A model generated the notes under the pieces. That model did not search any database. It had not been told where the DNA came from and worked only from the letters and a program-made list of their open reading frames with translations. Positions 1 to 19,684 of a stretch of 20,808 nt of DNA are shown here, one piece after another (within the stretch, counting starts at the first letter, position 1; every line of letters begins with the position of its first letter). This stretch comes from a virus. The position numbers were made by a program, and so were the translations under genes. The DNA lies in the IMG/VR virus record IMGVR_UViG_3300010396_000438, positions 1-20,808 of that record. One strand, written 5' to 3'.

Positions 1-2392
1 TCTTCCAGCCGTTCAGGAAGTTGGTTCCTGATGGGCACGGAAGGGTCACGGCAATTGTGCTTGCATTGTTATACGTCGTCAGGTCGTCTTCATCGGCGTT
101 CGCAATCGTGTACGTTGTCCCTGTCTGCGGGTTCACACCGTTATGCGTTACGAGCGTTTGGCTCGAGTCGGCAGATGGCGTTGTTGAGCTAAGGCAGAAG
201 TTCCCTGCTGACGCGCATGGGAACAGGTAAGTGAAGTACGTGTCCGCTGGGGATGCGCCGAGCTTCAAGTAGGCTGGCGTGGTGTTCGATGCTCCGCTGC
301 CAGAATCCGCCTGATAGAAAGAAGCGGTCGCTTGCGACCCACTGCCCAGCGTGAAGGTGTTCTGCGTGTTGAGCGTTAGTGTGTTGGCGATTAGGTTTCC
401 GCTCACGTCCAGAGACGCCAAAGTCGAGCTTGCTGCGTGATTCTGCAAGCGCCACGCGAAGCCCGTGGGCGAAGTGTCCGTGAACCGCGTATAGAGAATC
501 GTATCTGCGTTGTTGGCGTTCTGGTTCGCTGCCAGCGGGAAAGTTACGCCTCCACCGCCGCTCCCAGGCCATGCGCCGCCATTCCATAAGGGCAAGTCAG
601 TCGAGCTTACGGTGATCGTGTCATCTGCTGAATTCGCGTTGTTGCGGAAGTCAATCGAGTCGCCGTGGGAGAGCCGAATCACCCCAGCCAGGGCCGGATT
701 CGCGGATGAACTAATAAACGGCTCTCCGTTCACCATTATCTGTCCCGACTGGTCGGGGAACGAGAACGTCCGATTGTTCGTGAATATTGTGTGTTGGAGA
801 GTCGCGGTGAAGCCGTCACTGGAAACCGGAAAGCTCCATGAAGGCGTACTGATACCTCCACTGTTTGTAAATATGGCCCCTCCGATCTGGGCAAAATCTC
901 CATTAGCGCCCGCCTCGCTGCTTAGTCCGACAGCTGTGATATTGCACTGGTTGTAGGTCGGCAAGAAAGTTAGTGCGGCTATCGTGTTATTCAGAATGTT
1001 GCAATTCCCGTTGGAGTTCGTACTGTCGCCTACAAGAGAAACCATCTGCGTCTGGTTCGACGCAGACTCATCTGTTTGGTACACATAGGCGGTGGACCCT
1101 GTTGCCAAACGATAAAACGTCTGCCCTTCCAAGAGAATGTTGCGTGCGTCCTTGACCTCAAAGAGTGTCGTAGTTGTGTCGCTGGTGTTGCCCTCGCCGT
1201 GCTGCCCCCAGAAGTTTAGGCCGTTAATGGCTCCAGCGTGCCCGTTCCCGTTAATGTTGACGATATTGTTCCCTGCTCCCGGATGCCCTGCCCAGTCGCC
1301 GCCAAAGAAATCAATCTGGCTGATTCCGCCACCTGCGGTCACTGCGTTAGCAGCCGTGATGGTCATGGGCGTGCAGCCCGTGGCGTACTCGCAATCAAGG
1401 GAGAGATTGTTGAAGTAGTCGGAGTTGTCGCCAATCGCTCCGCTTATGTCGTGCATCCATACGAGTTTCGGTGCCGCGCCATCCACGGTGATGCGGTCAA
1501 TTTCACTATCATAAAGGCCCGCAAGGTCAAGAAGCGCGCCCGTCACTGTGGCGGAAGCGTTCCCGCTAATCTCAAATCCGTCAAGAATTGCGTGGGTGGT
1601 AATTCCGCTGCTTCCGGGTACGTTCTGAACTGCGGCCAAGACGTTTGCCGTGGACGCGAGAACGATGTGCCCAACAGCAATGGAAGAGGTGGGGCTACCG
1701 TGCAGCTGACCGACCATACCCGAACCATCCGTGAACGTGACGCATGGAGTGCTATTCGTTATCGTGCAAGTGAGAGTCCACGGCCCTTGCCAGATAATTG
1801 TTACTGGCTTCGCGGATGTGCCGATGGCAAGGGTGCTGGAAATAGTCTCGGAGAAGTTCGGGCTTCCTAGAATCACGCCACCCGATGAGGGCAAGGCACT
1901 CTGAGCGGCTGCTAGAGTTAGCTTGCATGTTCCAAAGGGCAGACCATCATTGGAATCATTGCCATCCGTACTGACGCACTGCACCGCATCGCTCGGCTGT
2001 GGCTTGACTGCGAAGTTGCTTCCGCCTCCACCGCCCCCGATGTTCACATCCGGCTGCACGTAGGTAGTCAGCGAAGGCCCGTAAAACTGAAGCGTGAACG
2101 GCCCAGCGGTTCCGCTCTTGATGTAGAAGTGGAAGTTTCCAAGCCCGTCAGCAGTCACTGGATTTGGCGACGTGCAAACAACGTCACTGGCAGAAGCGCA
2201 CAGCGGCGCGAGTGGCGTGCAAGGCGTAGTCGTCGTTCCTGCGGGCTGCGTGCAGACGGCGATTGTAGCCCCGCCTGCGGGCTGGCCGGAGCGCGACTGC
2301 ACAACTCCGTCGTATCGTGGATTTTGCGCGTAGGAGCGCGGAGCGCAGAAAAGCAAGCACACCACGGTTAGGAGAATCCACCTTGTCTTCAT
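1..2392 (-). CDS. Tail fibre/spike protein with Sec signal peptide (3' end outside window)
   Basis: I translated the minus strand from the ATG at 2390-2392 to the left edge and it stays open for 797 codons, so the C-terminus is missing. AAGGA lies 4 nt before the ATG. Residues 1-22 form a classic signal peptide: positive MKTR, hydrophobic WILLTVVCLLFCA, then SYA before Q23. A small Cys-rich domain follows (QNPRYDGVVQSRSGQPAGG; four Cys before residue 80). A Gly-rich linker leads at about residue 136 to CVSTDGNDSNDGLPFG, the typical entry motif of right-handed beta-helix/pectate-lyase-like spikes. A Ser/Thr/Asn/Gly-rich body continues. Near residue 657, SLDVSGNLIANTLTL resembles fibre shaft repeats. 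In podovirus-like modules a fibre gene commonly follows the ejection genes, as here. Role inferred: host-surface or polysaccharide recognition. The signal peptide is unusual for a virion protein, so an exported depolymerase-like product is an alternative. Confidence 0.75.
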   Translation of the reverse strand, partial: MKTRWILLTVVCLLFCAPRSYAQNPRYDGVVQSRSGQPAGGATIAVCTQPAGTTTTPCTPLAPLCASASDVVCTSPNPVTADGLGNFHFYIKSGTAGPFTLQFYGPSLTTYVQPDVNIGGGGGGSNFAVKPQPSDAVQCVSTDGNDSNDGLPFGTCKLTLAAAQSALPSSGGVILGSPNFSETISSTLAIGTSAKPVTIIWQGPWTLTCTITNSTPCVTFTDGSGMVGQLHGSPTSSIAVGHIVLASTANVLAAVQNVPGSSGITTHAILDGFEISGNASATVTGALLDLAGLYDSEIDRITVDGAAPKLVWMHDISGAIGDNSDYFNNLSLDCEYATGCTPMTITAANAVTAGGGISQIDFFGGDWAGHPGAGNNIVNINGNGHAGAINGLNFWGQHGEGNTSDTTTTLFEVKDARNILLEGQTFYRLATGSTAYVYQTDESASNQTQMVSLVGDSTNSNGNCNILNNTIAALTFLPTYNQCNITAVGLSSEAGANGDFAQIGGAIFTNSGGISTPSWSFPVSSDGFTATLQHTIFTNNRTFSFPDQSGQIMVNGEPFISSSANPALAGVIRLSHGDSIDFRNNANSADDTITVSSTDLPLWNGGAWPGSGGGGVTFPLAANQNANNADTILYTRFTDTSPTGFAWRLQNHAASSTLASLDVSGNLIANTLTLNTQNTFTLGSGSQATASFYQADSGSGASNTTPAYLKLGASPADTYFTYLFPCASAGNFCLSSTTPSADSSQTLVTHNGVNPQTGTTYTIANADEDDLTTYNNASTIAVTLPCPSGTNFLNGWK

Positions 2393-2420
2393 CTTGTCCT
2401 TCGCTTTAGTTTCGTCAAAT

Positions 2421-2615: not shown

Positions 2616-2750
2616 ATGGATGTTTTCTGGCAAGTCTTCGCGGCTGTATTCACGGCCATAATGCTTTCAGTATCAATCTTGTCATTCATCTTTTCGCACG
2701 AGTTGCGGCGTGAGCTGCGGCGTCGAAGCGAAGAAGAGTACAAGGAATGA
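2616..2750 (+). CDS. Small single-span membrane protein (44 aa)
   Basis: This reads on the plus strand, against the structural module. The product starts MDVFWQVFAA and has one hydrophobic stretch at about residues 4-28 (VFWQVFAAVFTAIMLSVSIL, then SFIF). A strongly charged tail follows (HELRRELRRRSEEEYKE), so one membrane span with a charged end is predicted. Its TGA overlaps the ATG of the next gene as ATGA, which suggests translational coupling. The Shine-Dalgarno match before 2616 is poor, and an in-frame GTG at 2607 is an alternative start. Hydrophobicity is not a mirror of a convincing minus-strand gene, since none covers this stretch. A holin, holin partner or superinfection-exclusion peptide would fit the size, but no family is recognised. 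Confidence 0.5.
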   Translation: MDVFWQVFAAVFTAIMLSVSILSFIFSHELRRELRRRSEEEYKE

Positions 2751-2914
2751 ACGGCGCTGAAATCTTCGGTGCGATTCTCTTTGCTGTCGTTGCCATCGTG
2801 TGCTATATGGCCCGCATGGAAATCACGGAAGAGCGCAGGTTCCCGTGGATCACAATGCGAATGGGGATTGCTGGATTAGCGGCCATTTATTTCGTCTGGC
2901 TTCTTCTTTCCTAA
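2747..2914 (+). CDS. Small two-span membrane protein (55 aa), holin-like by size
   Basis: The frame begins at ATG 2747 inside the ATGA overlap with the 44-residue gene and ends at TAA 2912-2914. Two hydrophobic segments are visible: about residues 5-22 (EIFGAILFAVVAIVCYMA) and 39-54 (MGIAGLAAIYFVWLLL). They are joined by a charged loop (RMEITEERRFPWITMR). GAAGAG and AAGGA lie just upstream. The last 39 nt overlap the 3' end of the convergent ejection-protein gene. Two spans in 55 residues, placed beside a fibre gene, fit a small holin or holin antagonist, but no lysis enzyme is in the window to support this. Gene reality rests on the ATGA coupling and the two clean hydrophobic segments. Confidence 0.5.
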   Translation: MNGAEIFGAILFAVVAIVCYMARMEITEERRFPWITMRMGIAGLAAIYFVWLLLS

Positions 2915-5508: not shown

Positions 5509-6029
5509 TATGACCTTCCCCCTGGATTGAAGGCGGTGTTTATCCAGCCCATTGCAGTTTGATCTCCGCTCGGTCCAGCGGCGCGCGCTTGCAGCGTCGA
5601 AGGCCCAAGTCCGTACATCTGCCCCGCCATCTTCATCTGCTCGTCGGTGAGTTGGCCCAATCCGTAAGCCCCAGCCTCTTGATTAGCCATCTGCTGAGTT
5701 TGCAGCCCCGCCGCTGTCTTTCCGGCCGCCTGCCCTTCTTCTAGCGCGAGCTGGTCTTGCTGTGCGGGAAGGTTTGAAGCGTTGCGCGTGGCGCTGGCGT
5801 TGTTCTTCGCTTCCATGCCAGCAGCTTGGAACGGCGCAGCCGTCGCGCCCATCTCGGAAGTCGTCGCCGCTTCTTTTTGCTGAGGGTTGAAGTAACCCGT
5901 CTTCATCAGCGACGTGTATTCGGGCGTGAGTGCGCTTATGCCAGCGTTTGCACCACTGAGTTCGTTCGCCCCAATTGCGTTTGTAACGCCTAATTGTTTT
6001 TGAGCAGCCTGCGATTGCCCGCGCGCCAC
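5508..6029 (-). CDS. Ala/Gln-rich putative internal virion protein (173 aa)
   Basis: The GTG start at 6029 overlaps the stop of the GNAT-like gene as TAGTG, and GGGAGG lies about 7 nt upstream. The product is rich in Ala, Gln and Gly, with predicted helices and no Cys (MARGQSQAAQKQLGVTNAIG at the start; QLTDEQMKMAGQMYGLGPST near residue 130). Short Ala-rich proteins at this position, before two larger ejection-type proteins, are common in podovirus-like modules and are usually packed in the virion. This role is inferred from composition and gene order only. Confidence 0.5.
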   Translation of the reverse strand: MARGQSQAAQKQLGVTNAIGANELSGANAGISALTPEYTSLMKTGYFNPQQKEAATTSEMGATAAPFQAAGMEAKNNASATRNASNLPAQQDQLALEEGQAAGKTAAGLQTQQMANQEAGAYGLGQLTDEQMKMAGQMYGLGPSTLQARAAGPSGDQTAMGWINTAFNPGGRS

Positions 6030-6424
6030 TAGAGAACCTCCCGGTGATAATCAGTCCACAGCGGTCTTTCCCATCCCAACTTCAGCATGGTGCGGTCAAA
6101 GGCCTTGCTCTGCGCAATCTCAGGTGGAATCCAGCAAGACACATCCTCGAATCCGGCGAGCTTCGCCAGCTTCGGCGTTTCCTTTTGCAGGATGAGCATT
6201 CGGCCCAACTTCTCGCGCTTCGTTCCCGCGCTCGAATCGAACAGCCAATACGCTTCTGCCGTCTTGCGCAGAAACAAGGCATGGGTCACAAGGCCGTCTT
6301 CCTCGATCACTACGCGCACCGACATCGCGTCGGGACTTGGCAGTTGGTAGGCGAGTCCTTGCACCACATGAAGTTCAGTGATTCTCGGCAAGTCGCGCTG
6401 TTCGTACTCCCGAAAGACGATCAT
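6029..6424 (-). CDS. GNAT-like N-acyltransferase fold protein (131 aa)
   Basis: The N-terminus (MIVFREYEQRDLPRITELH) reads like the opening strand and helix of GNAT acetyltransferases. The central EEDGLVTHALFLRKTAEAYW looks like strands 2-4, and the end (AFDRTMLKLGWERPLWTDYH) like the closing helix and strand. The acetyl-CoA loop, normally R/Q-x-x-G-x-G/A, is not clear: the best candidate is KREKLGRMLIL at residues 69-79, which lacks the second Gly/Ala. The protein may therefore have lost activity. Proteins of this kind occur between tail and ejection genes in many phages, with unknown substrate. The start ATG overlaps the 54-aa gene's stop as ATGA. Acetylation of a virion or host protein is speculative. 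Confidence 0.6.
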   Translation of the reverse strand: MIVFREYEQRDLPRITELHVVQGLAYQLPSPDAMSVRVVIEEDGLVTHALFLRKTAEAYWLFDSSAGTKREKLGRMLILQKETPKLAKLAGFEDVSCWIPPEIAQSKAFDRTMLKLGWERPLWTDYHREVL

Positions 6425-6585
6425 CCTGGCGGCCTGCCGATATTCAGGAATGGCGGTGCTGGAAGTCGATTCCCTTTTGGCGCTGGTGTGTTGGCGTTGA
6501 TGTAAGTCTGCGCTTTCGTAAGCGCTTCACCGACGCGCGGCGTCTCTTTCGTGATTTTATCGAGTCCCGGTAGCGTTAACGCCAT
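6421..6585 (-). CDS. Conserved-looking small phage protein (54 aa)
   Basis: The frame runs from ATG 6585 to TGA 6421-6423, with AGGAG 9 nt before the start. The product begins MALTLPGLDKITKETPRVGE and ends FLNIGRPPG. It is short, Pro-rich at the C-terminus and has no membrane segment. Its 5' end overlaps the 63-aa gene by 29 nt and its stop overlaps the GNAT start as ATGA, so it fills an otherwise empty 132-nt gap exactly. That fit and the ribosome-binding site are the main support. Function is unknown; a minor tail or ejection accessory is possible. Confidence 0.6.
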   Translation of the reverse strand: MALTLPGLDKITKETPRVGEALTKAQTYINANTPAPKGNRLPAPPFLNIGRPPG

Positions 6586-6748
6586 CTGGCGCTGCTCCTA
6601 TGAAGGCGAACTTCTCCGTGTTGGTCTTTTGCGCATCGAGATAGTGCCTGTGACAAAGAAAACGAATCATCTTCACGCCATTCTCGATGTGCAGCGCTCG
6701 CCACTGCGCCCACTGCTTGCATCCTGATTCATCTTGGCAATTCATCAT
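6557..6748 (-). CDS. Small Cys/His protein, possible metal-binding (63 aa)
   Basis: The start ATG at 6748 overlaps the nozzle gene's stop (ATGATG over TGA 6745-6747). A second ATG follows directly, and GAGG lies 9 nt upstream. The product has C4 and C10 (MMNCQDESGC) and a later FLCHRHY at residues 31-36, so one zinc site of two Cys plus Cys/His ligands is possible. The rest is short and polar. It is coupled between the nozzle and the 54-aa gene. A longer reading starting inside the nozzle gene is less likely, because the coupling start is standard in this cluster. Function unknown. Confidence 0.6.
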   Translation of the reverse strand: MMNCQDESGCKQWAQWRALHIENGVKMIRFLCHRHYLDAQKTNTEKFAFIGAAPDGVNATGTR

Positions 6749-9700
6749 GCGGACATGCCTCGCACGGGAATCGTCGCGTCCTTCTTCATGCAGAACACGA
6801 ACCGCTCCAACTGAAACCACGACCCAAGAGAGTCGGTCGCAAGCTGAACCGCGAAGCGCTCTCCGTGAAGGTTCACGCATCGTTCCCCATCGCCCGTAGG
6901 AAACGTTGAAAGCGTATAGTTGCGCAGATTGATGACGCGATTGGCCTTGAGCACGGAGAGCAGAAGCCCACCAGCGCCAATTGTCCGCCACTTCAGATAC
7001 CCCAGGAGCTTTCTGTGCGCGCCAAGCTGCAACTGCTGCTCTTCCATCGTCCCAGGGCAAAAGTAGGTCGTGTAGATTGAATTGATCTCCACGCCATCAT
7101 CTGAAAGCTGATTAGGAGCCTCAATCTGCTGGTAAATCTTCCCGTTGCCAGCACCATTGCCGAAAAACGGTTGCGCGGTCCCATCGCTGCGCTCCGCGAA
7201 AGTCATACTATTGGCTGCGATGTTCCAATACGTCCAGTGTCGCCCGCGTCCGTGTGCGAGAATCTTGCCCGTGAAGGCCGAATACACAACCATCGGCGTT
7301 GAGGCAATGTCCTGGGCCGAATCGAGCCATTTGTAATCGACTACGAACACGACATTTGGTGCCGTGGCTCCGTTCACTGGCGCGCCCACGAGAATCCGCT
7401 TGTTCACTTTGTCGATGCGCACCCAGATGGTGTAACCCGCAGCCCAGTTGATTGAATTCCACACGATTTTGCCCGTGAGCGAAGCATCCTCCTGAATCTC
7501 CGGAGTGATTTTTACGGGATCGCCGCCCCAGGTGACATACAGGCCGGAACGTTCCGCGAACACCGCCCATTCCTCCGTCCAATCGACTGCGTTCGGCCCG
7601 CAAATGCCGACAGTCGCAGAGACTTCATTTACCGCCCACGAAGCAGGCTCGTTGACTCCATCGTCGGTGACGTAACAGAGGTAATGGTCTTTCGCCAGAT
7701 AGTAGTTGTTCCGCAGGGGGAATCCGGCGCGCAATTGCTGCCCATCGTTCGGGCGAATCTGCACTTGTCCGGTTATCGAATCGTAAGACTCGGGATTGAA
7801 AGCGTGAGAGATGCGCGCAATAGAATAATTGAACGGGGAATTGGTCGGGAAAATCTCGATTGAATCGACGAGGAACGTTCCGCCAGTTGTGGGTATGCCA
7901 TCCGCATAAACCTGCAACTGCAAATCGCTCGGTGGTGTTGCAAGGGGCGCATTCGTAAGAGTAGCCGTGAATTCGGCGTAATTGGCACCAACTTGCGCAG
8001 CGGCTACGGCAAGCCCTGCAGTTGTGAATCCCCCAATCGTGCTCTGCAAATTGATATGCAGTGTACCTGCGACAAGTCTGCCACTGCTCCGTACTCTTGC
8101 CCGCACGCTGTAGGAAGTATTGCTGGCAATGATGGCAACTCCAAGATAATCCTCGAACGCGCTTTGCGTCATCTTCCCGCAAATGAACGAGCCGTTGCCT
8201 GTGATCGCGTAAGCGTCTCCCCAGTCGGCTGGCAGGCCAAGCCCTGATGCACTTTCGCCGCCAGCATAGAAGCTCGGGTCTTCTGTCCAGCCCAATGGGA
8301 ACAGGTTTCCATTGTTGTCCTGCATGAATCCGCCATCGAACGTCAGATTGACGAAGTTCGGTTGCTTGTTGCGCTCACCGAGCCAAATCAGACGGGCATT
8401 GTATCCGGCAGAAAACGCGCATTCGCCAAGCTCCAACTGATTGAAAAGGTATTCGGCTTGGAAGGACGCAATTAGAATCTCGTCAGAGAAGTCCACGGTG
8501 ACTGTGGTCGATACATTGTCATTAATCATCATCGTGGGAATCGAGTAGAACGTCCCTTGCGTGGCGGGCGGAATGATAGCCGGAGTGAAAAGTATCAGCC
8601 TCGCAACGACATTAGGTGGCCCTGTTGCGATGTCGCTGACGGCAGCCAGTTGCGCTCCAGCAGCGTAGAACGGGGCGGGTGGAGATGGCTGGGCGATGAA
8701 TCCCTGCCGCGTGACGAACGCCACACTGACATTGTGGCGACCTGCTGAGATGTTTCCAACGATAGTCGCCGTGCCTGCGCTGGTCGAAGATTCATTCTGC
8801 CCGATCTGGGCAAAGGTGAAACTGCCCGCAGTCGGGATGGACAGAATCTGGGCGTATCCGTCGAAGGTTGACGAAGCGGTCGCCCCTGTGGCGCTGCCCG
8901 TGGCTGTGACCAATGCAAACGTGAAAGTGGTTGTACTTGGAACGGTCTGCACGGTGAAAGTTCCATTGAAACTCGCATCGCTCGCCCCGCTAATCACGAT
9001 TGTCTGCCCGCTGACGAATCCGTGCGCCGTGGCGGTCGAAATCGTCACTACGCCAGCGACTTGCGTGGCCGTTGCCGCTCCGCCGTGGGCGATATTCGGA
9101 ATCCCGCCGATAAGCACCGTCCAGCCGACAGAGAAGCCGTGCGCTCCGGAAGTGGTTACGGTCACGATTCCGTTTAGCCTGATAATCGAGGTTACGACTT
9201 TGGTTGACGTGCCACCGCTGCTCGTTGGAGTAGTTCCGCTAGAACTGGAGAAAGTTTGCGCATAGTTGAAGTTGTCGGGTCCGGTTACGAGAGTCACCTT
9301 GAAAGTTCCGTCGAAAGTCGCATCGGTTACTCCGGCGATGGCTACCAGATCGCCGACGTTCAATCCGTGCGCCGTCGCTGTTTGAACTGAAACGCCTGAC
9401 CATAGGAACAATCCACCAAAAAACTCCCGGCCTGTGCGCGTGATAGTCGTGATGGTCGCCGGAGACGGCGGACTGCCTGAGCCAATCGTCGCCGCAGGCG
9501 GCAGGTAGTTCTGCACGACAGGAGGCGCGCCTGGTCCGCACTGACTCACCCTGTCCCAGTGGATGTCATCGAACTGGCGCGGAATATCGAAGCCGCCCAG
9601 GGAATTGAAGAACGCCTGATATTCCCTGCCGAACAGGGTCGTGGATTCGTACAGAAGGTTCGGGTAGGGACGCGAAGCAATCAGATCCAGAATGCCTTGC

Positions 9701-9978
9701 GGCGTTTCCTTGTAAAAATTGCTGAGGGAATCCCAAACGAGAAGGCGCTGCGCCAGCGTGGAAGTAATGAAGCTTTTGAGTCCGTTCACGGAAGCAGCCG
9801 GGTTAAGCGCGGCGTACCCCAGATTCAACAGGCCGCCGCGCGTGCGCACTCCGCCCTGCGAGAAAACAACGTCTTGGCAGAATGGCGATGCTCCCGGCGG
9901 CAAGTCCTGCGGAGGAATGGCAGGACAGTAACCGCCAAAAACATCGACGCTCAAATCGACCAGATCAGGGTAGAGCAA
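6745..9978 (-). CDS. Tail nozzle-like structural protein with Ig-like repeats (1077 aa)
   Basis: Largest gene in the window. The N-terminus (FGGYCPAIPPQDLPPGASPF, then CQDVVFSQGGVRTRGGL, residues 14-50) resembles phage tail tubular/nozzle proteins, which share an 'insert a set of points, then a gene-wide R-x-G' opening. Residues 196-395 hold repeats of the form AHG-x5-G-x-x-V-x-I-x-G, then FDGTF or FNGTF, seen widely in phage tail proteins. Residues beyond 400 are beta-rich, with WLGERNKQPNFVNLTF near 540 and a propeller-like C-terminal half. No ATG lies nearby: after the stop of the upstream gene (9994) the first usable codon is TTG at 9978, with no strong ribosome-binding site, so the start is uncertain. 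Position after the adaptor gene supports a tail-tube end role. Confidence 0.62.
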   Translation of the reverse strand: MLYPDLVDLSVDVFGGYCPAIPPQDLPPGASPFCQDVVFSQGGVRTRGGLLNLGYAALNPAASVNGLKSFITSTLAQRLLVWDSLSNFYKETPQGILDLIASRPYPNLLYESTTLFGREYQAFFNSLGGFDIPRQFDDIHWDRVSQCGPGAPPVVQNYLPPAATIGSGSPPSPATITTITRTGREFFGGLFLWSGVSVQTATAHGLNVGDLVAIAGVTDATFDGTFKVTLVTGPDNFNYAQTFSSSSGTTPTSSGGTSTKVVTSIIRLNGIVTVTTSGAHGFSVGWTVLIGGIPNIAHGGAATATQVAGVVTISTATAHGFVSGQTIVISGASDASFNGTFTVQTVPSTTTFTFALVTATGSATGATASSTFDGYAQILSIPTAGSFTFAQIGQNESSTSAGTATIVGNISAGRHNVSVAFVTRQGFIAQPSPPAPFYAAGAQLAAVSDIATGPPNVVARLILFTPAIIPPATQGTFYSIPTMMINDNVSTTVTVDFSDEILIASFQAEYLFNQLELGECAFSAGYNARLIWLGERNKQPNFVNLTFDGGFMQDNNGNLFPLGWTEDPSFYAGGESASGLGLPADWGDAYAITGNGSFICGKMTQSAFEDYLGVAIIASNTSYSVRARVRSSGRLVAGTLHINLQSTIGGFTTAGLAVAAAQVGANYAEFTATLTNAPLATPPSDLQLQVYADGIPTTGGTFLVDSIEIFPTNSPFNYSIARISHAFNPESYDSITGQVQIRPNDGQQLRAGFPLRNNYYLAKDHYLCYVTDDGVNEPASWAVNEVSATVGICGPNAVDWTEEWAVFAERSGLYVTWGGDPVKITPEIQEDASLTGKIVWNSINWAAGYTIWVRIDKVNKRILVGAPVNGATAPNVVFVVDYKWLDSAQDIASTPMVVYSAFTGKILAHGRGRHWTYWNIAANSMTFAERSDGTAQPFFGNGAGNGKIYQQIEAPNQLSDDGVEINSIYTTYFCPGTMEEQQLQLGAHRKLLGYLKWRTIGAGGLLLSVLKANRVINLRNYTLSTFPTGDGERCVNLHGERFAVQLATDSLGSWFQLERFVFCMKKDATIPVRGMSA
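8794..9393 (-). repeat. Ig-like 'AHG' repeats, one apparently nested in another
   Basis: Residues 196-243 form one complete unit (TATAHGLNVGD ... VTDATFDGTFKVTLV ... NFNYAQ). Residues 269-296 begin a second unit (TTSGAHGFSVGW ... IGGIPN), but its second half, STFDGYAQILSIPTAGSFTF, appears only at 370-389. Between them sits a third, complete unit (311-355: STATAHGFVSG ... DASFNGTFTVQTVPS). This order is what an insertion of one copy into another would give. Confidence 0.55.
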
Positions 9979-9993
9979 TCCGTTGGCTCTGAA

Positions 9994-10368
9994 TTACAGC
10001 AACGGTGCTGCAAAGATTGCTTCACCACAAATCTTGTCGCCTGTGACGGCACCGGGGTATGCTCCGGCAGCAAGTTCCGTATTGAAAGCCGAGGTCACTT
10101 TGAATTTGCAGTTATTCAGAGCGGAGCCGAGAATCGGAAAATATCCGTTGGCGATATTCCCTCCCTGGCTCCAGATGTCGATTTGGCAAGCACCTTGGCT
10201 AGTCTCGATAGTGTCCGGCCCTCCGATGAACGATGGGTCTTTAATGGCCTTCGTGAAGTCAATCGTGTCGCCGCCGGAAACGTAATTGCCGGAAGCCACC
10301 AAGTTGAACGCTACGCGCAGTTGCTGGCCTACCGCCTTAATGCTTGTGATTTGAACTTGCAGTGCCAT
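9994..10368 (-). CDS. Small beta-rich virion protein (124 aa)
   Basis: The ATG at 10368 has an excellent ribosome-binding site (AAGGAGGAAGA) that includes the stop of the upstream gene. The product opens MALQVQITSIKAVGQQLRVA and is made of short beta-like stretches with Gly/Asn turns (NYVSGGDTIDFTKAIKDPSF). There is no transmembrane segment or catalytic motif. Such a strong translation signal implies a high-copy product, so a head decoration, tail or fibre accessory protein is plausible. Its place between the adaptor-like and nozzle-like genes fits a tail component. Not assigned to a family. Confidence 0.55.
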   Translation of the reverse strand: MALQVQITSIKAVGQQLRVAFNLVASGNYVSGGDTIDFTKAIKDPSFIGGPDTIETSQGACQIDIWSQGGNIANGYFPILGSALNNCKFKVTSAFNTELAAGAYPGAVTGDKICGEAIFAAPLL

Positions 10369-10377
10369 TCTTCCTCC

Positions 10378-11160
10378 TTAGATGATTGGCCGCTGCGAGC
10401 GTCCGCCACGCCCCGAATAGGGCTGCCGCCGCACTTGCTTGCGTTGCCTGCGGCGCGCGGATACCATTCGCAGAAGCATTATTTCTTCGTCAGCAGTTGC
10501 CTTGAACTGTGGCGCAACCATCCCGCCGCGCGATTCGCAAAAAATCTTTGCGCCCCAATACGCGGCTGCGTTTGTCACTCCCCGGATAGGAACCGGGTCG
10601 GTTACAGCGACGAGCAAAGGAAGGTGCTTCTCGTATTTGACCTTTACATCCTGAACCTGAAGTGCTCCACGGAACCTGAGCCCGTCAGCTTTCCATTCCC
10701 AATCGACCAGGAAAGTCTGCTGAATCATATTGAGCAGGCCGTCATTCGGCTGCTTCATCGGCGGTCCAGTGAAGTTGTTCGTCCCGTTCTGACGCTCCCA
10801 CAGTTTCAGCGGAAGAATCAGGTCGGTGGGCAGTTGCGGAGTTTGCGCGAATACGTTGCCGGTTCCGTTCGGGTAAATGATGTTCGTGCCGGAATCGTCA
10901 ACGATCAACCGCCCTTCAGGGTCCGAAATGGGCATGGCCGGAAGTCCGATCAACCATGCTTCGCCGGTATACGTCTCCATGCCCACTTGCGCCAGTTCCA
11001 TTTGCACCCGCTCATACGCCCCGTTCAGAACGTCGAACGTGAAAGGAGCCGTATCGGTGAGCACGTCGCCACCCGGAACTTCACTGTCGTTCAGAATCAT
11101 GCGAAGGCGATTGAGCACCTGTTCGCAGGTGACGTATGCGCTGGTTGCGAGTACGGGCAT
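10378..11160 (-). CDS. Putative head-tail adaptor/connector protein (260 aa)
   Basis: The N-terminal third is helical (VTCEQVLNRLRMILND; FTFDVLNGAYERVQMELAQV, residues 10-57), as in gp4/gp11-type adaptors that dock under the portal. A mid region with LPTDLILPLKLWERQN (about 111-126) and LVDWEWKADGLRFRG follows, then a helical part with a very basic tail (MVSARRRQRKQVRRQPYSGR, about 232-251). The basic tail could contact DNA in the channel. The start overlaps the upstream stop (TAAATG at 11158-11163). Order capsid, then adaptor, then nozzle matches podovirus modules. Function is inferred from order and the helical N-terminus, not from a firm family match. Confidence 0.5.
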   Translation of the reverse strand: MPVLATSAYVTCEQVLNRLRMILNDSEVPGGDVLTDTAPFTFDVLNGAYERVQMELAQVGMETYTGEAWLIGLPAMPISDPEGRLIVDDSGTNIIYPNGTGNVFAQTPQLPTDLILPLKLWERQNGTNNFTGPPMKQPNDGLLNMIQQTFLVDWEWKADGLRFRGALQVQDVKVKYEKHLPLLVAVTDPVPIRGVTNAAAYWGAKIFCESRGGMVAPQFKATADEEIMLLRMVSARRRQRKQVRRQPYSGRGGRSQRPII

Positions 11161-12030
11161 TTACTTCTTCGCGGCTCCTGCGGTGACTGGTTCTGCATAC
11201 CTGTCGGGATACATCTTCATCGCGCGCTCTTTGGCTGGCATCTCGCGGAGAGTTTCGATTCCTTCATCGAGCCATCCGCCGCAGTGCGAGCAAGAAAGCA
11301 CGTTCTCTTTGATTTTCGACCCACAGCCAGGGCAATCGACAAGCTGCTGAGGTACGTACGACCACGGCCGCTCCTGCCCCAGCCGCGTACATGACCTGCG
11401 GTGAATCTCGTTGATGTTCTGCTGTTCCGTGGGGCGCGCCCACATCCGGTCGCCTTCGGCCACAAGACGCTGGTCCTCGATTTGCAGTGCGTGCTTGGCG
11501 CGCTGCACTTCCTTTTTGGTCACTAACTTGCGACATTCCTTGACGAAATCGGCGCGCAAGTCTTGGATGCGGAAGGAGATTTCCTCTTTCTCTTTCTTGA
11601 CGTTGTCTGGCTCGATGTTCACCGCGACAATGGCTCCGGACTTGTTGTCCTTGCGCATCTTAACGTCGGGCGGATTGAAGTTCAGAAACTCGATTTCCTT
11701 TTCGAGCGCGTTCAGTAGCTCTTTGGGAAGGTCAGGTTCCGCTTCACACAGAAGCAATCCCCACTTCTCTTTCGTACCTGGCGATCCGTAGCCGTGCGAG
11801 GCTGCGTCGGAGCGCATCCCGACAATATCGAGCGCCAGTGGCTTCGATTTCAGCCAGTGCATGACGCGGCGCTGGTCGCCAATGTCCTGAATCTCCGGCG
11901 TCGGATAAACAACGAGAACCGCGAATTCCTCATTGGCCTTTTTCCCTGGGACAATCCACGTTCCTGAAAGCCCGTTCGAGTGAAGCTGCTCTTGCTCGCT
12001 GACATTTATGATGATGCTCGCTTGACTCAT
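11161..12030 (-). CDS. Unassigned virion-module protein with C-terminal zinc ribbon (289 aa)
   Basis: GGAGAGAGGG precedes the ATG at 12030. The N-terminal part (residues 1-120) is mixed alpha/beta (SGTWIVPGKKANEEFAVLVV; WGLLLCEAEPDLPKELLNAL). Residues 140-205 are predicted as a charged helix (KKEKEEISFRIQDLRADFVK; KKEVQRAKHALQIEDQRLVA). A zinc ribbon follows: CPGC at 233-236 and CSHC at 247-250. The tail includes KERAMKMYPDRYAEP. No enzyme family is recognised. The zinc ribbon and long helix suggest a nucleic-acid or protein-binding role, perhaps in capsid assembly, since it sits between the capsid and adaptor genes. Confidence 0.55.
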   Translation of the reverse strand: MSQASIIINVSEQEQLHSNGLSGTWIVPGKKANEEFAVLVVYPTPEIQDIGDQRRVMHWLKSKPLALDIVGMRSDAASHGYGSPGTKEKWGLLLCEAEPDLPKELLNALEKEIEFLNFNPPDVKMRKDNKSGAIVAVNIEPDNVKKEKEEISFRIQDLRADFVKECRKLVTKKEVQRAKHALQIEDQRLVAEGDRMWARPTEQQNINEIHRRSCTRLGQERPWSYVPQQLVDCPGCGSKIKENVLSCSHCGGWLDEGIETLREMPAKERAMKMYPDRYAEPVTAGAAKK

Positions 12031-12039
12031 CCCTCTCTC

Positions 12040-12702
12040 CTATTGGACAACGAAGTCCTCACCACAGAACGGCCTTAACCCATCTTTCAGCCGGTCTTGT
12101 GTGATGCGTACAAAACCAAGTTCCTTGCGTTCCACTTCTTGCTCGATGGCCGCTCTGCGCTGCGCCAGCGAGAAAGACTTCCGGCCATAGACAATCATTT
12201 GAACCAATCCCTCGACGATTTCAGGGTAGAGCGGAATCGGATTCCCCTGACTCGTCCCGTCATCGGTGAGCGGATAGCAAAGCTCGTACTCTCCGCGCGA
12301 GGGATACGGCCCTGAAGTGTCCACGGTACTGATGCCGACTTTCTCTTCTCCGGCCTTGGCCCACTCTTCGGGCGAGCCGTACTCTTCCGGCGGCCGCCAC
12401 ATTTCCAAATGCCAGCAATTACCCGGCAGATACTTTGGCACCATGCGCGTTTCCACTACAGACTTCACGAGCTTGGTGAACGGCCTTGATTCGGAGTAAC
12501 CTGTCAGCTTGTCTCTGAGCGTTGCAACGCCGTGCTCCCATTCCTGCCACTCGCCAGAGATGGGAACAATGCGGTTATAGCCCCACACGACGCGGAAGTT
12601 CGGCTCACCGAAGAGGTTGTTTCCGCCCGCAGTGCGCAGACGTTCCGTGACGCTATCGGGGCAATCGTGATGCTCGACCTTCTCCCGTGAACTCTGCTTC
12701 AT
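12040..12702 (-). CDS. Unassigned capsid-region protein (220 aa)
   Basis: The ATG at 12702 overlaps the 80-aa gene's stop as ATGA. The product is soluble with no membrane segment, rich in Trp and aromatic residues (VVWGYNRIVPISGEWQEWEH near residues 38-57; GNCWHLEMWRPPEEYGSPEE near 94-113). It ends in a helical, charged part (SLAQRRAAIEQEVERKELGF). I do not recognise a family. It lies in a coupled group with the zinc-ribbon protein after the terminator, so it is probably expressed at lower level than the capsid gene and may act in head completion. Confidence 0.5.
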   Translation of the reverse strand: MKQSSREKVEHHDCPDSVTERLRTAGGNNLFGEPNFRVVWGYNRIVPISGEWQEWEHGVATLRDKLTGYSESRPFTKLVKSVVETRMVPKYLPGNCWHLEMWRPPEEYGSPEEWAKAGEEKVGISTVDTSGPYPSRGEYELCYPLTDDGTSQGNPIPLYPEIVEGLVQMIVYGRKSFSLAQRRAAIEQEVERKELGFVRITQDRLKDGLRPFCGEDFVVQ

Positions 12703-12941
12703 TCGGGAACGACTGGCACGGGCTTCGGAGGAACGGGCAACGGCGGCTCGGGTTTCGGCTCAATTACCGATACTTTGGAAACAAGCTGAATTCCACCCGA
12801 CGCCGTGCGCTCGACTGACACAACTTCCGCGTGAAGTTCGGCCTTGTCAGAAGCAAGCTCGAATGGGCCGTCTGCCTCAAGCTGCGAAGTCAGAATGTGA
12901 TTGCCATCCTTGTCTGTTTCTTTCGATGTTACATGCATCAT
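12699..12941 (-). CDS. Small protein with Pro-rich tail after the capsid gene (80 aa)
   Basis: The start is set at 12941, where AAAGGAG lies 5 nt before an ATGATG; an earlier in-frame codon at 13055 would overlap the capsid gene without a ribosome-binding site. Residues 1-60 look like a small beta-type domain (MMHVTSKETDKDGNHILTSQ; HAEVVSVERTASGGIQLVSK). Residues 61-80 are a Pro-rich tail (EPKPEPPLPVPPKPVPVVPE). Small proteins directly after the capsid gene are often decoration or cement proteins, and a Pro-rich arm would fit, but this is inference. It is separated from the capsid gene by a terminator hairpin. Confidence 0.55.
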   Translation of the reverse strand: MMHVTSKETDKDGNHILTSQLEADGPFELASDKAELHAEVVSVERTASGGIQLVSKVSVIEPKPEPPLPVPPKPVPVVPE

Positions 12942-12956
12942 GAATCTCCTTTCAGG

Positions 12957-12985
12957 AAAAGCAAGGGGAAGCATTCGCCTCCCCT
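12957..12985 (-). terminator. Intrinsic terminator after the major capsid gene
   Basis: On the minus strand AGGGGAGGC pairs with GCTTCCCCT (12985-12964): a 9-bp stem with one G-T wobble and a GAAT tetraloop, followed by TGCTTTT (12963-12957). It starts 12 nt past the capsid stop TAA at 12998-13000. A competing hairpin CCCC/GGGG (12996-12981) shares the GGGG arm, so the two structures exclude each other. Expected effect: most transcripts end after the capsid gene, and some read through into the tail genes. Confidence 0.7.
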
Positions 12986-12997
12986 CGCGGTTGGGGT

Positions 12998-14254
12998 TTA
13001 GTAGCCTCCGACGGGAAGCGCAAGGCCGTCGAAGAAGAAACCAAAGCGCGGACAATCCATGAACACGTTGAATACCGTGTCGAAGTACGAGATGTATCCA
13101 GCCAGCAATCCGCCTGACTGCCCGTACAGTTGGAACACAGTTTGTCCGCCTTCCTCGAACAGGTCCACTTCCTTGGTCACGCCGCGACCCCAGTGCTTGA
13201 GCGCCAAAACGTCAATGCGCTGGATGGTGGCGTGAATGCTCGTCTTGATGGGAATCCCGCCGAATGTCTTCGGAGGACGCCGCTTGAGCATGTCTTCGGA
13301 GTTGTTTCCGGTGATTTGCGCCTGGATGTTGGTCGTCACGGTGATTCCGACGTTCTCCCATGCCGCCTCCTGGTCTACGTTCATGAACGCAACCAGAGGC
13401 TCATCGAAGTCAACGCCAAGAACGCGCCGCAACTTGTTTTCGCCCAAGCGCCGCAATGCCGGCGTGATCGTCGCGCCGCCAGCCGCCACGTGGGGAGTCT
13501 TCAGCACTTCAGGGTAAGTGGAACGCGCCAGATTGTTCCAAGACCCAGAAGCTGAATCCACGTGGTTGTAAAGCAAACCCTCAAGCGAGACAGGGTTCGC
13601 TCCGCCAGCTCCCTGCGAGATGTTGATGACCAGTGCGTCACCGACAATCGTTCCCGCGGGAAGCGCGTTGAGTGTGATTGTTTTGAGCAGCGGGTCAACC
13701 GCCGTGACCGTAGCCAAGCCGCGCGAAGCGGATGCCAGTCCCGTCGGATACACCTGAATATCCTGGTTGAAGTAAAAGATATTCGGGTTGACCACGCCAA
13801 TCGTGGTTCCGCTGATGCTCTGAATCGAATCTTCCTGCCCTGTGCCGTTGGTCTGATAGACGCAATCGAGGAACCGCTTGAACATTTTCATCGCTTCCGC
13901 GACTTCGCGGACAGCAACGTCCTCAACCGCTTTATCGTTTCCCTTCGTCGCGTATTCCGCGAGCTTCGATACTTCAAACGCCCAGCGGAATTGCAGCGTC
14001 GAAAGCGTGCCAACGTCCCAGGTTGATCCAGAGCCACGACCCATGTCGTCGAAGTCGGCTGTTCCCTGCGAACCTTTGCCTCCAGGACGGATGAGCATCG
14101 GCAAGCGAATGTTGCGGGTGGAGGCGTCGATGACGTCTCCGCGCTTGTCAATCATGTCCAGCAATACGTGCTCCTGCTCATAGGCAGTCGGAACGTTTTT
14201 GCGGACCTTTTCAAGCTGTAGCGCTACTGACTGAAGATTTGAAGGTGGGGCCAT
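12998..14254 (-). CDS. Major capsid protein (HK97-type fold expected, 418 aa)
   Basis: AGGAG lies 9 nt before the ATG at 14254. The N-terminal helix region (SVALQLEKVRKNVPTAYEQE, residues 9-28) is followed by a basic loop (NIRLPMLIRPGGKGSQG) and SGSTWDVGTLSTLQFRWAFE, with strand/helix alternation typical of capsid proteins. Middle residues (KMFKRFLDCVYQTNGTGQED, about 113-132) recall the spine helix and P-domain of HK97-type subunits. The C-terminal part is beta-rich and ends FFFDGLALPVGGY. Length (418), the position after portal and scaffold, its own leader, and a strong terminator directly behind all fit the most abundant virion protein. The fold is inferred from pattern; no cross-link or protease motif is evident. 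Confidence 0.82.
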   Translation of the reverse strand: MAPPSNLQSVALQLEKVRKNVPTAYEQEHVLLDMIDKRGDVIDASTRNIRLPMLIRPGGKGSQGTADFDDMGRGSGSTWDVGTLSTLQFRWAFEVSKLAEYATKGNDKAVEDVAVREVAEAMKMFKRFLDCVYQTNGTGQEDSIQSISGTTIGVVNPNIFYFNQDIQVYPTGLASASRGLATVTAVDPLLKTITLNALPAGTIVGDALVINISQGAGGANPVSLEGLLYNHVDSASGSWNNLARSTYPEVLKTPHVAAGGATITPALRRLGENKLRRVLGVDFDEPLVAFMNVDQEAAWENVGITVTTNIQAQITGNNSEDMLKRRPPKTFGGIPIKTSIHATIQRIDVLALKHWGRGVTKEVDLFEEGGQTVFQLYGQSGGLLAGYISYFDTVFNVFMDCPRFGFFFDGLALPVGGY

Positions 14255-14357
14255 AAGGCCATTCTCCTGTTCGTCGTTGAATTTTTAATCTGCCGCTCAA
14301 CGAGTACTCGGGGGAACGTGCCCGATAAATCTGCGTTCACTTCGGCTCGCTTTCTTG
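14255..14357 (-). promoter_or_regulatory. 103-nt structured leader before the capsid gene
   Basis: The longest non-coding gap within the structural module. On the minus strand it can form a TCGGG/CCCGA hairpin, contains the palindrome CGAGTACTCG (14301-14310), and then has a perfect 7-bp stem, TCGTTGA (14303-14297) with TCAACGA (14280-14274), whose 16-nt loop includes TTAAAAA. That stem ends just before AGGAG of the capsid ribosome-binding site. I find no convincing -35/-10 pair. It may be a stabilising 5' hairpin, an RNA processing site or a promoter of unusual type. Confidence 0.4.
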
Positions 14358-15677
14358 CTATTGACCCAGGTGCTTGCCCGCCAAGACTTCAGCGGTCGTA
14401 AATGGACTTCCGTTTTCCCGATACCACCGGCCAGCAATCTGACGCGGCCCTTTGGTGGTTTCAGTTTTCTTTCCACCGGATGCGGGAGGTGCAGTCCGTG
14501 CGGTTCCGGCGCGGCGCGCAGCGGTTTCCCGGTTGTTTTGAACCATACTCGGCACTTCCTTTGCCAAGACCGTTCTGACCATGCGATTGAGCAGCCAAGG
14601 TTGTGACCATGCTGCTTTCACAAGATTGTTCGTTTCCGAAAGATTGCGCGATTGGTACGCTGCTCTCAGCTTGCGCATGAACGATGGGCTGTTTTGCAGA
14701 AACTTCTCAGTGCTCGCCACAATCTGTCCGACAATCTGATTGCGCTTATCTTCGGAGATGGAATTGACCTGCATGAGCCTCTTGACCGCAGGATGGGCGC
14801 TGACAATATCCCGCTCAACCTTCAAGTTAGAAGAGGCGAATGAATTGTGGAACTTTTTCTGCTCGCCCTTTTCGGCTTCAGCCTTCGTGCGGTCAAACGA
14901 TTGCCGGTCGCGCTGCAATCGTTCCTCTTCGGCGCTCGGCTTCGGACGTTCGGACGTGTAGCCTTGCGCCCAGTTGAGCAGCTTACGCAATCCGCCTTCC
15001 AATCCTTTGGCTTCAAGTCCTTTGGCCTCTTCCGCCAGTTCCGCAATGAATTCAGGGATTTCTTTCTGTGCGAGCGTTGCGCCCAAAATGCTGCCCATGA
15101 CTTCGTTGTAACTCTCGCGGTCCAGGCGCGCCCATTCGCGGGGAATTGTCTTCAGTAACGACACAGCCGCGTTGCGGTCCCGGTCGAAGAAGTTGCTGAT
15201 TATCTGAACATGGCCGGGGTAGTTCCCTTCCTGGTCGCGTTGGTCGAAGTTGCTGTCCAGTTCTTCGATTTCCTTTACATCCTCAAGAAGCGCCTGCACG
15301 TCCGCTTGGCCGTTCGGGAAGTTGTCGCGCATTACACGCGCTTCCGCTACAGTCGGGAAGATTTCGCGCAGCGCTGCTTCCCTGCGGAATACAGCCTCGA
15401 CTTGCTCTTGCAGCTTGGGGTATTTCGTGAAGACTTGCCCAAGCTCGGGAGCCTGCTTGACGATGGAACGCAGTCGGGCAGATACAGCGCCGCGAAACTC
15501 GGATAACTCCGGCTCTTCCTTGGTTTCTCGCGGCTGCTCGGCTGACTCCCGCTCTACGGTTTCCTGCGGCTCAGGTTGAGATTCATCTACGGTTTCAGTC
15601 GGAGTCTCAGCAACCTCAGTCGATACGTCTCCTGCGTCAGGAACTTCCGTCGTCATCAGTTCTGTGTCTTCGGCCAT
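14358..15677 (-). CDS. Putative scaffold-like protein (439 aa)
   Basis: Start set at ATG 15677, ten nt after the portal stop, with AGAGGGAA in front; an in-frame start at 15707 would lie inside the portal gene without such a signal. Residues 1-70 are strongly acidic and Pro/Thr-rich (MAEDTELMTTEVPDAGDVST; ESQPEPQETVERESAEQPRE). Residues 75-290 are mainly charged helix. The remainder includes a basic, Ala-rich end (ETAARRAGTARTAPPASGGK). An acidic N-terminus, helical body and location directly between portal and capsid are typical of scaffolding proteins. No protease motif was seen, so this is not an obvious prohead protease. A minor head protein is the alternative. Confidence 0.58.
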   Translation of the reverse strand: MAEDTELMTTEVPDAGDVSTEVAETPTETVDESQPEPQETVERESAEQPRETKEEPELSEFRGAVSARLRSIVKQAPELGQVFTKYPKLQEQVEAVFRREAALREIFPTVAEARVMRDNFPNGQADVQALLEDVKEIEELDSNFDQRDQEGNYPGHVQIISNFFDRDRNAAVSLLKTIPREWARLDRESYNEVMGSILGATLAQKEIPEFIAELAEEAKGLEAKGLEGGLRKLLNWAQGYTSERPKPSAEEERLQRDRQSFDRTKAEAEKGEQKKFHNSFASSNLKVERDIVSAHPAVKRLMQVNSISEDKRNQIVGQIVASTEKFLQNSPSFMRKLRAAYQSRNLSETNNLVKAAWSQPWLLNRMVRTVLAKEVPSMVQNNRETAARRAGTARTAPPASGGKKTETTKGPRQIAGRWYRENGSPFTTAEVLAGKHLGQ

Positions 15678-18327: not shown

Positions 18328-18497
18328 CGCTTCTTCTTGCGCGGCCCTACGTGCGGCTTCTTACTTCCTCTAGTACCCGACAGGCTGCCTTGTGGTGTTG
18401 CTGCATCCCACTCGGCAACCTTACTGCTACCGCCAAGCGCCCTGAGGCCCGCAGGTGAGTGCCCCCAGCGGGCTTGCTGTACCGAGTCCCACGGCAT
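18324..18497 (-). CDS. Small basic protein (57 aa)
   Basis: The ATG at 18497 overlaps the upstream stop as TAATG, and its own stop overlaps the next start as ATGA, so it is tied at both ends by coupling overlaps. The product runs MPWDSVQQARWGHSPAGLRA at its start and ends KKPHVGPRKKKR. It is basic and Gly/Ser-rich, with no Cys and no membrane segment. A longer reading up to 18644 would run far inside the 281-aa gene and is not preferred. No function assigned; the basic tail may bind DNA or RNA. Confidence 0.55.
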   Translation of the reverse strand: MPWDSVQQARWGHSPAGLRALGGSSKVAEWDAATPQGSLSGTRGSKKPHVGPRKKKR

Positions 18498-19342
18498 TAC
18501 TGAGCTGGCTGAACTGGCGTGTAACCCCAGACGCGCGCTTTGACCGCTCCGGCCCCGGCGTTGGACGTGCCCGCCGTAATCAAAATGGCAGTCAGCGCCG
18601 AAGTTGTTCCGGTGCTCGCTGGTGCGGCTTGGTTCGCAAGGCAAGTCGTTCCTGCGGTCAGCGTGGAATCCGCAGAGCAGAAAATGCCCGTTGCGCCCGA
18701 AATGCCGACAGCCCAGTTAGCCGACGTGGTGATGGTCGTAGTTACGCGCCCCGCTGCCCCTTGATTGTAGAAGTTGGTCGGAACGAACGTGGTCGAGGTA
18801 GTCGTCAGGCCTGTGGTCGAGAGTGCGACAATGCCCGTGTCCGCGATCCAGTAAACGAGTCCTCCACCCTGGTTGCCAGCGTCGGTAATCGCTTCCTCGA
18901 TGCCGTTGTCGCCGGAATTGACGGGCGCGCCCTGGCCGTGCGTGTTATTGAACGTCCCTGTGACCGTGGCGCAAAGCGAAGACCCGCCAACGCCAAGATT
19001 GCCCGCAGGACACGCACCAATCGTAACGCCCGAAGGAGTAACCGTTTCGGCGTTCGCATCGTTGACGCGGATCGGCACGTTCGTATTGAAGACTGCGGCC
19101 ATCGAGATGGTCGTACCGTCGGCCAGCGTCGGCCCTAGGCCGCCTGGAACGGCCACGACAATCGACGTGCCCGCGCCTGTGGTTCCGTTGCCTGATACGA
19201 CCGTGCCCTGCCACGTGGCATATCCAACGGAGTAGTACATTCCGCCGACGTGATGCAGGTAAGACTGTTGCTGGGGATTCTGCGCGAACGCCGCCATTGT
19301 GAGCAGCATCACTGCGCCAATCAGACTGATGATCTTTCGCAT
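18497..19342 (-). CDS. Exported beta-rich protein with Sec signal peptide (281 aa)
   Basis: ATG at 19342 with GAGGAG 9 nt upstream. Residues 1-20 are a clear signal peptide (MRKIISLIGAVMLLTMAAFA before Q21), cleaved after AFA. The mature part is rich in Gly/Thr/Ala and beta-like, as in virion surface proteins: HHVGGMYYSVGYATWQGTVV (30-49), then ASDTG-type turns, FNNTHGQGAPVNSGDNGIEE, and NWAVGISGATGIFC near 210. Four Cys are in the mature chain, so a disulphide in the periplasm is possible. It lies in the coupled head cluster before the portal. No family recognised. The mature start (QNPQQQ) resembles that of the fibre (QNPRYD). Confidence 0.6.
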   Translation of the reverse strand: MRKIISLIGAVMLLTMAAFAQNPQQQSYLHHVGGMYYSVGYATWQGTVVSGNGTTGAGTSIVVAVPGGLGPTLADGTTISMAAVFNTNVPIRVNDANAETVTPSGVTIGACPAGNLGVGGSSLCATVTGTFNNTHGQGAPVNSGDNGIEEAITDAGNQGGGLVYWIADTGIVALSTTGLTTTSTTFVPTNFYNQGAAGRVTTTITTSANWAVGISGATGIFCSADSTLTAGTTCLANQAAPASTGTTSALTAILITAGTSNAGAGAVKARVWGYTPVQPAQ

Positions 19343-19366: not shown

Positions 19367-19684
19367 TTAGACGCCTGGTCCGAATCCTGATTCGTTTTCC
19401 ATTTCGTCCCCGGCCGAATAGCCGTGATCTTGTCCCTCTGAGCCGCCAAGCTGCTCGTGGATGTGCTGCGCAATGCCTTCCGAGTCGCCGTGGCCGTGCT
19501 CGTGCTTCTCGTGTCGTCCATCTTGGTGCAATATGTGGACTGTGTGACCCTTGGCGTGGGAATGGATGTGAATCTGCGGGCGGTCGTGGCCGCCGTGCTC
19601 TTTCTTGCCTTTCGGCTCCGGCTTTTTCTCTTCTTCGCCGCCGCTAAGGTGTCTGCCCATCGCTGGGTTCATGAAGTGTGACAT
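19367..19684 (-). CDS. Very His-rich small protein, possible metal binding (105 aa)
   Basis: Start ATG 19684 with AAGGAG 7 nt upstream; the 5' end overlaps the 92-residue-frame gene by 41 nt. Seventeen of 105 residues are His, concentrated between 29 and 80 (IHIHSHAKGHTVHILHQDGR; HEKHEHGHGDSEGIAQHIHE), with no Cys. The rest is Gly/Glu/Lys-rich, including GGEEEKKPEPKGKKE. Metal binding is the simplest reading of the composition. It is in the coupled pre-portal group. The His-rich core fits a pattern I have seen in uncharacterised soil-phage proteins, but I cannot name a family or function. Confidence 0.6.
   Translation of the reverse strand: MSHFMNPAMGRHLSGGEEEKKPEPKGKKEHGGHDRPQIHIHSHAKGHTVHILHQDGRHEKHEHGHGDSEGIAQHIHEQLGGSEGQDHGYSAGDEMENESGFGPGV

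Follow-up and report, generated by a model that had tools for sequence, protein, structure and literature searches.

Gene content of the virus record

We analysed one stretch of 20,808 bases, here called the window, which is the whole of IMG/VR virus record IMGVR_UViG_3300010396_000438 and holds the late module of a tailed phage, encoded on the minus strand. Read along that strand, the module comprises a gene for a 159-aa protein, small genes, a gene with a signal peptide (18497..19342), a portal-like gene (15688..18135), a scaffold-like gene, the putative major head protein gene (12998..14254), further small genes, a tail-tube-A/adaptor-like gene (10378..11160), the gene of a 1077-aa nozzle/tail-hub-like virion protein (6745..9978), a GNAT-like gene, three more genes and finally a fibre/spike gene (2..2392). 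The names portal, scaffold, adaptor and nozzle were inferred from gene size and order. The portal-like protein had no PHROG match, the head protein matched PHROG major head protein weakly (E 7.5e-05), and the 1077-aa protein matched a PHROG virion structural protein.

Relatives of the record were gathered with the portal-like protein and the second signal-bearing protein as baits, and afterwards by alignment scan; terminase and head genes of the tailed-phage type are present in them. A tblastn search with the fibre N-terminal domain (N-domain), the portal and the nozzle gave no match in 50,697 phage records, so the group lies far from cultivated phages. A search for the portal in 296 genomes from a single phylum, the one to which the Bacteroidales MAG of locus L002 belongs, found none, a result that says little about the host.

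Several small features of the window were also recorded. Two short plus-strand ORFs with an ATGA overlap (2616..2750 and 2747..2914), on the opposite strand to the late genes and between the fibre gene and a 474-aa gene, encode membrane-type proteins of 44 and 55 aa that are holin-like in appearance only. At its 3' end, the 1077-aa gene is overlapped by a minus-strand ORF (6557..7060) that encodes a short Cys-rich segment (MMNCQDESGCKQWAQW...), and several relatives have small ORFs overlapping the same spot. A histidine-rich protein of 105 aa (HGGHDRPQIHIHSHAKGH...; 19367..19684, minus strand) is encoded ahead of the second signal-peptide gene, and similar small genes were found in two relatives (G007 and G012). 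Zinc-ribbon-like CxxC...CxxC motifs occur in two proteins, the portal-like one and, at its C-terminus, a 289-aa one (11161..12030, minus strand).

The fibre gene and its signal peptide

The fibre gene (minus strand) encodes 797 aa, and its 3' end lies beyond the contig; it is incomplete in the window because the window is the entire virus record. Its ATG, at 2392, is preceded at 4 nt by the ribosome-binding site AAGGA (2397..2401), with an in-frame stop 13 codons upstream. Residues 1-22 (2327..2392; MKTRWILLTVVCLLFCAPRSYA, then Q) consist of M-K-T-R, an uncharged hydrophobic core and SYA followed by Q, which correspond to the three regions (n, h and c) of a Sec signal of the type cleaved by SPase I, with a positive n-region, a hydrophobic h-region and small residues at -3 and -1. 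Neither the twin arginine of a Tat substrate nor the lipobox of a lipoprotein was present in this segment. Within the first 80 residues, the only in-frame starts after residue 22 were GTG31 and GTG79. The only Shine-Dalgarno-like motif of GTG31 (GGAG) lies just 2 nt away, a bad spacing, and a start there would cost the protein R26, D28 and G29, three residues that do not vary among seven homologues.

The signal was called from conservation among homologues together with a rule-based scan, which required a positive charge in the n-region, a core of nine uncharged residues, small residues at both -3 and -1, and a Q at +1. The rule gave 1-5 matches per genome examined (2-5 in most), against 0.2-1.25 expected from shuffled N-termini, and the matches were mostly large genes within or beside the structural module. 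The preliminary description had read the gene start as a genuine Sec signal peptide directly after AAGGA, with no good start downstream, and these readings hold: K/R, the hydrophobic core, the small residue at -1 and Q at +1 are kept in all 16 signal-bearing homologues. At the level of sequence, conservation excludes chance and confirms that the protein begins with a Sec-type signal peptide.

Domains and predicted fold of the fibre

The mature protein would start with a beta-sandwich (residues 23-130; 2003..2326), for which AlphaFold gave a pLDDT exceeding 90 across most of mature residues 1-90, near 80 across residues 91-100 and low thereafter. The next region (residues 131-561; 710..2002) is probably a pectin-lyase-like beta-helix, as judged by eye; its model was of low confidence and was not used. 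The C-terminal part (2..709) runs to the contig edge. No known fibre family was recovered for the window protein by PHROG or Pfam match, and a profile of the N-domain had no match among the sequences of solved structures.

A Foldseek comparison of the N-domain model with the PDB ranked two phage tail structures first, the tail tip of Ur-lambda and the tail complex of cyanopodophage Pan3, at E-values of 0.09-0.4 that carry no significance by themselves; head-binding structures of the P22 tailspike (1lkt, 2vky) came lower down at E >1. Several predicted phage proteins superposed on the N-domain at 1.8-1.9 A over 97 residues (E ~0.003). The N-domain is homologous to that of fibres encoded in head-tail modules, a trait that the protein shares with tail fibres and spikes, and one signal-less homologue carries a tail-fibre PHROG domain at its C-terminus.

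Homologues with and without a signal peptide

A first-pass scan of viral and genome collections with the single N-terminal sequence as query gave no useful match. Six fibre genes in five related virus records were found to match from residue 4-11 onward, signal included, and the alignment scan for the fibre N-terminus recovered 30 loci. The sequences fell into two classes: 16 signal-bearing fibres (window included) and 16 records of signal-less fibres (L048, L050-L060 and L062-L065; about 13 distinct). The signal of the first class ends in A or G and is followed by an invariant Q at +1 (16/16), while members of the second begin directly at the N-domain, for example with MSxFRFDG. Pairwise identity among the signal-bearing fibres was 25% in the signals and 44% in the first 30 mature residues (15 sequences, ungapped). 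The letters of the signal thus change while its properties stay, as expected of a working signal.

The label (signal-bearing or signal-less) changes once on the tree of the fibre family. Homologues starting after residue 22, which the preliminary description had named as evidence against the signal, do exist, but only in the separate signal-less clade; all the closer relatives keep the signal, divergent in letters. The trait belongs to the whole phage group and not to the window alone, a point that the preliminary description had missed together with the second signal-bearing gene of the window.

Cysteines that accompany the signal peptide

Exactly four Cys were counted in the mature N-domain of the window fibre (Cys47, 58, 65 and 73), the number first noticed from the sequence. 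Cys47 is present in 16/16 signal-bearing and 14/16 signal-less fibres, whereas its presumed partner Cys58 is present in 15/16 of the former and 0/16 of the latter; the signal-bearing exception (L040) has Cys51 as a substitute. The second pair has two alternative forms: seven sequences have Cys65/Cys73, and six have a pair at other positions. Either form is present or missing as a pair, and both were found only in signal-bearing fibres. Overall, there were 1.2-3.4 Cys per 100 aa in signal-bearing fibres versus 0-0.9 in signal-less ones.

Further close pairs follow in region 131-561 (139/156, 209/217, 334/340 and 464/483). The first 14 mature Cys of the window fibre form seven close pairs, and only 32 of 200,000 random placements were as tight; this test excluded Cys786, which may pair with a Cys past the contig end. 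Since the label changes once on the fibre tree, the rows of the Cys comparison are not independent and amount to one event there and one in the second family of signal-bearing proteins, described below. The early suggestion that the Cys would suit an oxidising compartment has gained strength from these comparisons, as Cys47/Cys58 and the second, alternative pair go with the signal and are missing from the signal-less homologues. Together with the same link inside one genome of the second family (G026), the association makes the predicted export of the fibre to an oxidising compartment well supported at the level of sequence.

A second protein with a Sec-type signal

The gene at 18497..19342 (minus strand), which adjoins the portal gene, encodes a 281-aa protein with a predicted Sec signal (MRKIISLIGAVMLLTMAAFA, then Q) found by signal scan and in homologues. 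It is unrelated to the fibre and capsid/tail-like. A signal-bearing homologue was found in all nine records first examined (in G002 after the start was moved downstream), and 29 of 29 sampled homologues with a readable start (30 loci) have the signal, mostly behind AGGAG-type sites. For this family the alignment scan was run with the N-terminal part, as the full-length family had too few conserved stretches. Irregular signals were those of L075 and L076, which end in T, and of L070-L072, which are unusually long. Two Cys, 9-17 residues apart, are kept in the N-terminal part.

Genome G026 has two paralogues of this family (26906..27691 and 34315..35385), in that order one with neither signal nor Cys and one with both: the portal-side copy lacks the signal and any Cys, and the paralogue elsewhere has both. 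In a quick tree the two paired inside the signal-bearing family, a placement that points to a secondary loss, although the branches are long and the SH-aLRT support is just 81.

The model of the 281-aa protein had a pLDDT of 86.7. Its beta-rich part resembled the Pam1 capsid chain 7eel_H and the R4C baseplate 8gtc (Foldseek probability 1.00, E ~0.002), a partial similarity with TM of 0.3-0.5. From the structural matches of both putatively exported proteins and the tail-fibre domain of the signal-less homologue, both proteins look virion-type.

Position of the fibre gene

In signal-less relatives the fibre gene lies within the head-tail module, beside the adaptor-like gene, a place where the window has no fibre. 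The signal-bearing genomes that were mapped have nothing at this adaptor-side place and a fibre at the module end, and by inspection they showed no obvious signal-less fibre elsewhere. Based on this arrangement, we think that the signal-bearing gene is the functional counterpart of the signal-less fibre. Two genomes (G026 and G017) combine signal-bearing proteins with a signal-less fibre, so there the former need not be virion parts, and export alone is no proof of virion membership. The two rule matches of G017 are adjacent proteins of 835 and 546 aa, the 835-aa one with fibre-like sequence; the single match of G023, another genome with a signal-less fibre, looks like a chance membrane segment.

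Separately, in G002 (L033), five consecutive genes downstream of the terminase (5749..14371) encode proteins with signal-like N-termini (124, 652, 702, 1196 and 218 aa); four were checked and all four contain Cys. The signal-like segment of the 702-aa protein ends in AHA followed by T, so Q at +1 is not universal outside the two families.

Comparison with known systems

The tailed phages studied so far assemble their fibres in the cytoplasm as a rule, and to our knowledge the known spikes and fibres of the P22 gp9/T7 gp17 type are made without a signal peptide. The window fibre resembles that type in having a variable, beta-rich shaft after a conserved N-domain and in its late structural position, but differs in its Sec-type signal, its many Cys and its lack of a PHROG match; having a conserved signal, it departs from the cytoplasmic, signal-free synthesis that characterises tail fibres. 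The fibres of the signal-less sister phages have the same N-domain (37-40% identity) in the same type of head-tail module, but lack the signal and Cys58, contain few Cys, occupy another place in the module and are mostly of about 335 aa.

Capsid-decoration and baseplate proteins of the Pam1/R4C type are assembled in the cytoplasm; the 281-aa protein, similar to them in its beta-rich part, differs in its signal and conserved Cys pair. In filamentous phages, the coat proteins pIII and pVIII are virion components made with a Sec signal peptide. Virions of those phages assemble at the membrane without lysis, whereas the relatives of our record carry terminase and head genes of the tailed-phage kind. 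WceF of Pantoea stewartii (PMC7949094) is likewise an exported trimeric protein with a phage-tailspike fold, but it is bacterial, Tat-exported and encoded in an exopolysaccharide cluster, not a phage gene.

Our non-exhaustive searches of the open-access literature returned no report of Sec-exported tail fibres or of signal peptides on virion proteins in tailed phages. The initial view that an exported N-terminus is unexpected for a fibre holds. The new point, as far as the sequences tell, is a conserved signal peptide on a fibre/spike-type protein of a tailed phage.

Alternative explanations

An artefact, either a chance hydrophobic N-terminus or a wrong start codon, might be suspected of a signal called by rule on a single sequence, but the signal is conserved in two unrelated families and dozens of records, many with ribosome-binding sites; this conservation refutes the artefact reading, which we regard as hardly credible. 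The same segment could be an uncleaved anchor that tethers the protein to the inner membrane or to the virion; a hydrophobic N-terminus immediately ahead of a domain would suit that role. We consider such an anchor improbable, as the cleavage-type ending (A or G, then Q) is kept while the rest of the signal diverges, and the Cys pairs occur only in signal-bearing proteins. The preliminary description had also envisaged a chimera with an N-terminus from a host secreted protein; in that case a surface protein of the host, for instance a TonB receptor containing CarboxypepD_reg, would have supplied signal and first domain in one piece. The N-domain does show a weak similarity to CarboxypepD_reg (PF13620), with a best E of 8.6e-4 in one of seven homologues, but the window scored 15.5 bits, under the gathering cut-off of 32.3, and falls outside that family. 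Moreover, one scan of a genome collection gave no cellular homologue of the N-domain, its single match spanning residues 127-166 only, and the signal-less homologues of the domain are found in phage head-tail modules. The first mature domain being of phage type, we reject the chimera, the chance of which is very small.

The most serious rival to a virion spike is an adhesin or depolymerase (the latter among the meanings first proposed) that is not part of the virion but exported during infection, and that would reach the envelope or the medium and modify or mask the surface glycans of the host. It might loosen the matrix, or block receptors and so limit wasteful re-adsorption, with a spike-like fold reused from virion fibres. 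The signal itself fits this reading, as do the signal-bearing fibre-like proteins found besides a signal-less fibre in G026 and G017, a signal-bearing homologue (G008) with a pectate-lyase domain and a tail-spike match, and the precedent of WceF (PMC7949094), a bacterial enzyme that is exported and folds like a phage tailspike. However, the window and most signal-bearing relatives show no other fibre candidate on inspection, and their signal-bearing genes lie in the structural module; the homology to signal-less fibres includes the N-domain, beyond a mere catalytic shaft, and by eye the C-termini have no evident outer-membrane sorting signal. On balance, we hold a secreted, non-virion protein to be rather unlikely.

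A spike that may fold in the periplasm

We give an even chance to a spike that folds in the periplasm and joins the virion at lysis. The fibre/spike would be translated with a cleavable Sec signal and exported across the host inner membrane, the signal would be removed so that the mature protein begins at Gln23, and folding in the periplasm would be accompanied by disulfides 47-58 and 65-73 and by further pairs along the shaft. At lysis, the finished spike would meet particles assembled in the cytoplasm and dock through its conserved N-terminal beta-sandwich, so that the adhesin would be attached at lysis or later. The 281-aa protein encoded at 18497..19342 may be handled in the same way.

The sequences support the signal and its conservation, the association with Cys pairs and the homology of the N-domain to the fibres of signal-less sister phages; we infer from these the probable cleavage, export, disulfide bonds, virion presence and attachment timing of the fibre. 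Late docking is mechanically plausible, since the long tail fibres of T4 join already assembled fibreless particles (PMC3004832). Against periplasmic folding counts that Sec exports unfolded chains, so that oligomerisation of the fibre would have to take place in the periplasm unaided by any known helper. More tentatively, and at somewhat less than even chance, a clade of tailed phages may make several adhesins, and perhaps a capsid/tail decoration protein, in the periplasm by means of Sec and disulfides, with virions completed only during or after lysis, a way of virion formation for which our literature searches gave no description in tailed phages.

Both the periplasmic spike and the secreted protein predict a mature protein that begins at Gln23 and is located either on virions or, unattached, in the periplasm and medium, and the homologues with and without a signal provide a ready comparison for testing export. 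If the export holds true, part of virion assembly would occur across a membrane, or free adhesins or enzymes would be released during infection; either would alter the picture of receptor binding, superinfection and matrix breakdown in these phages.
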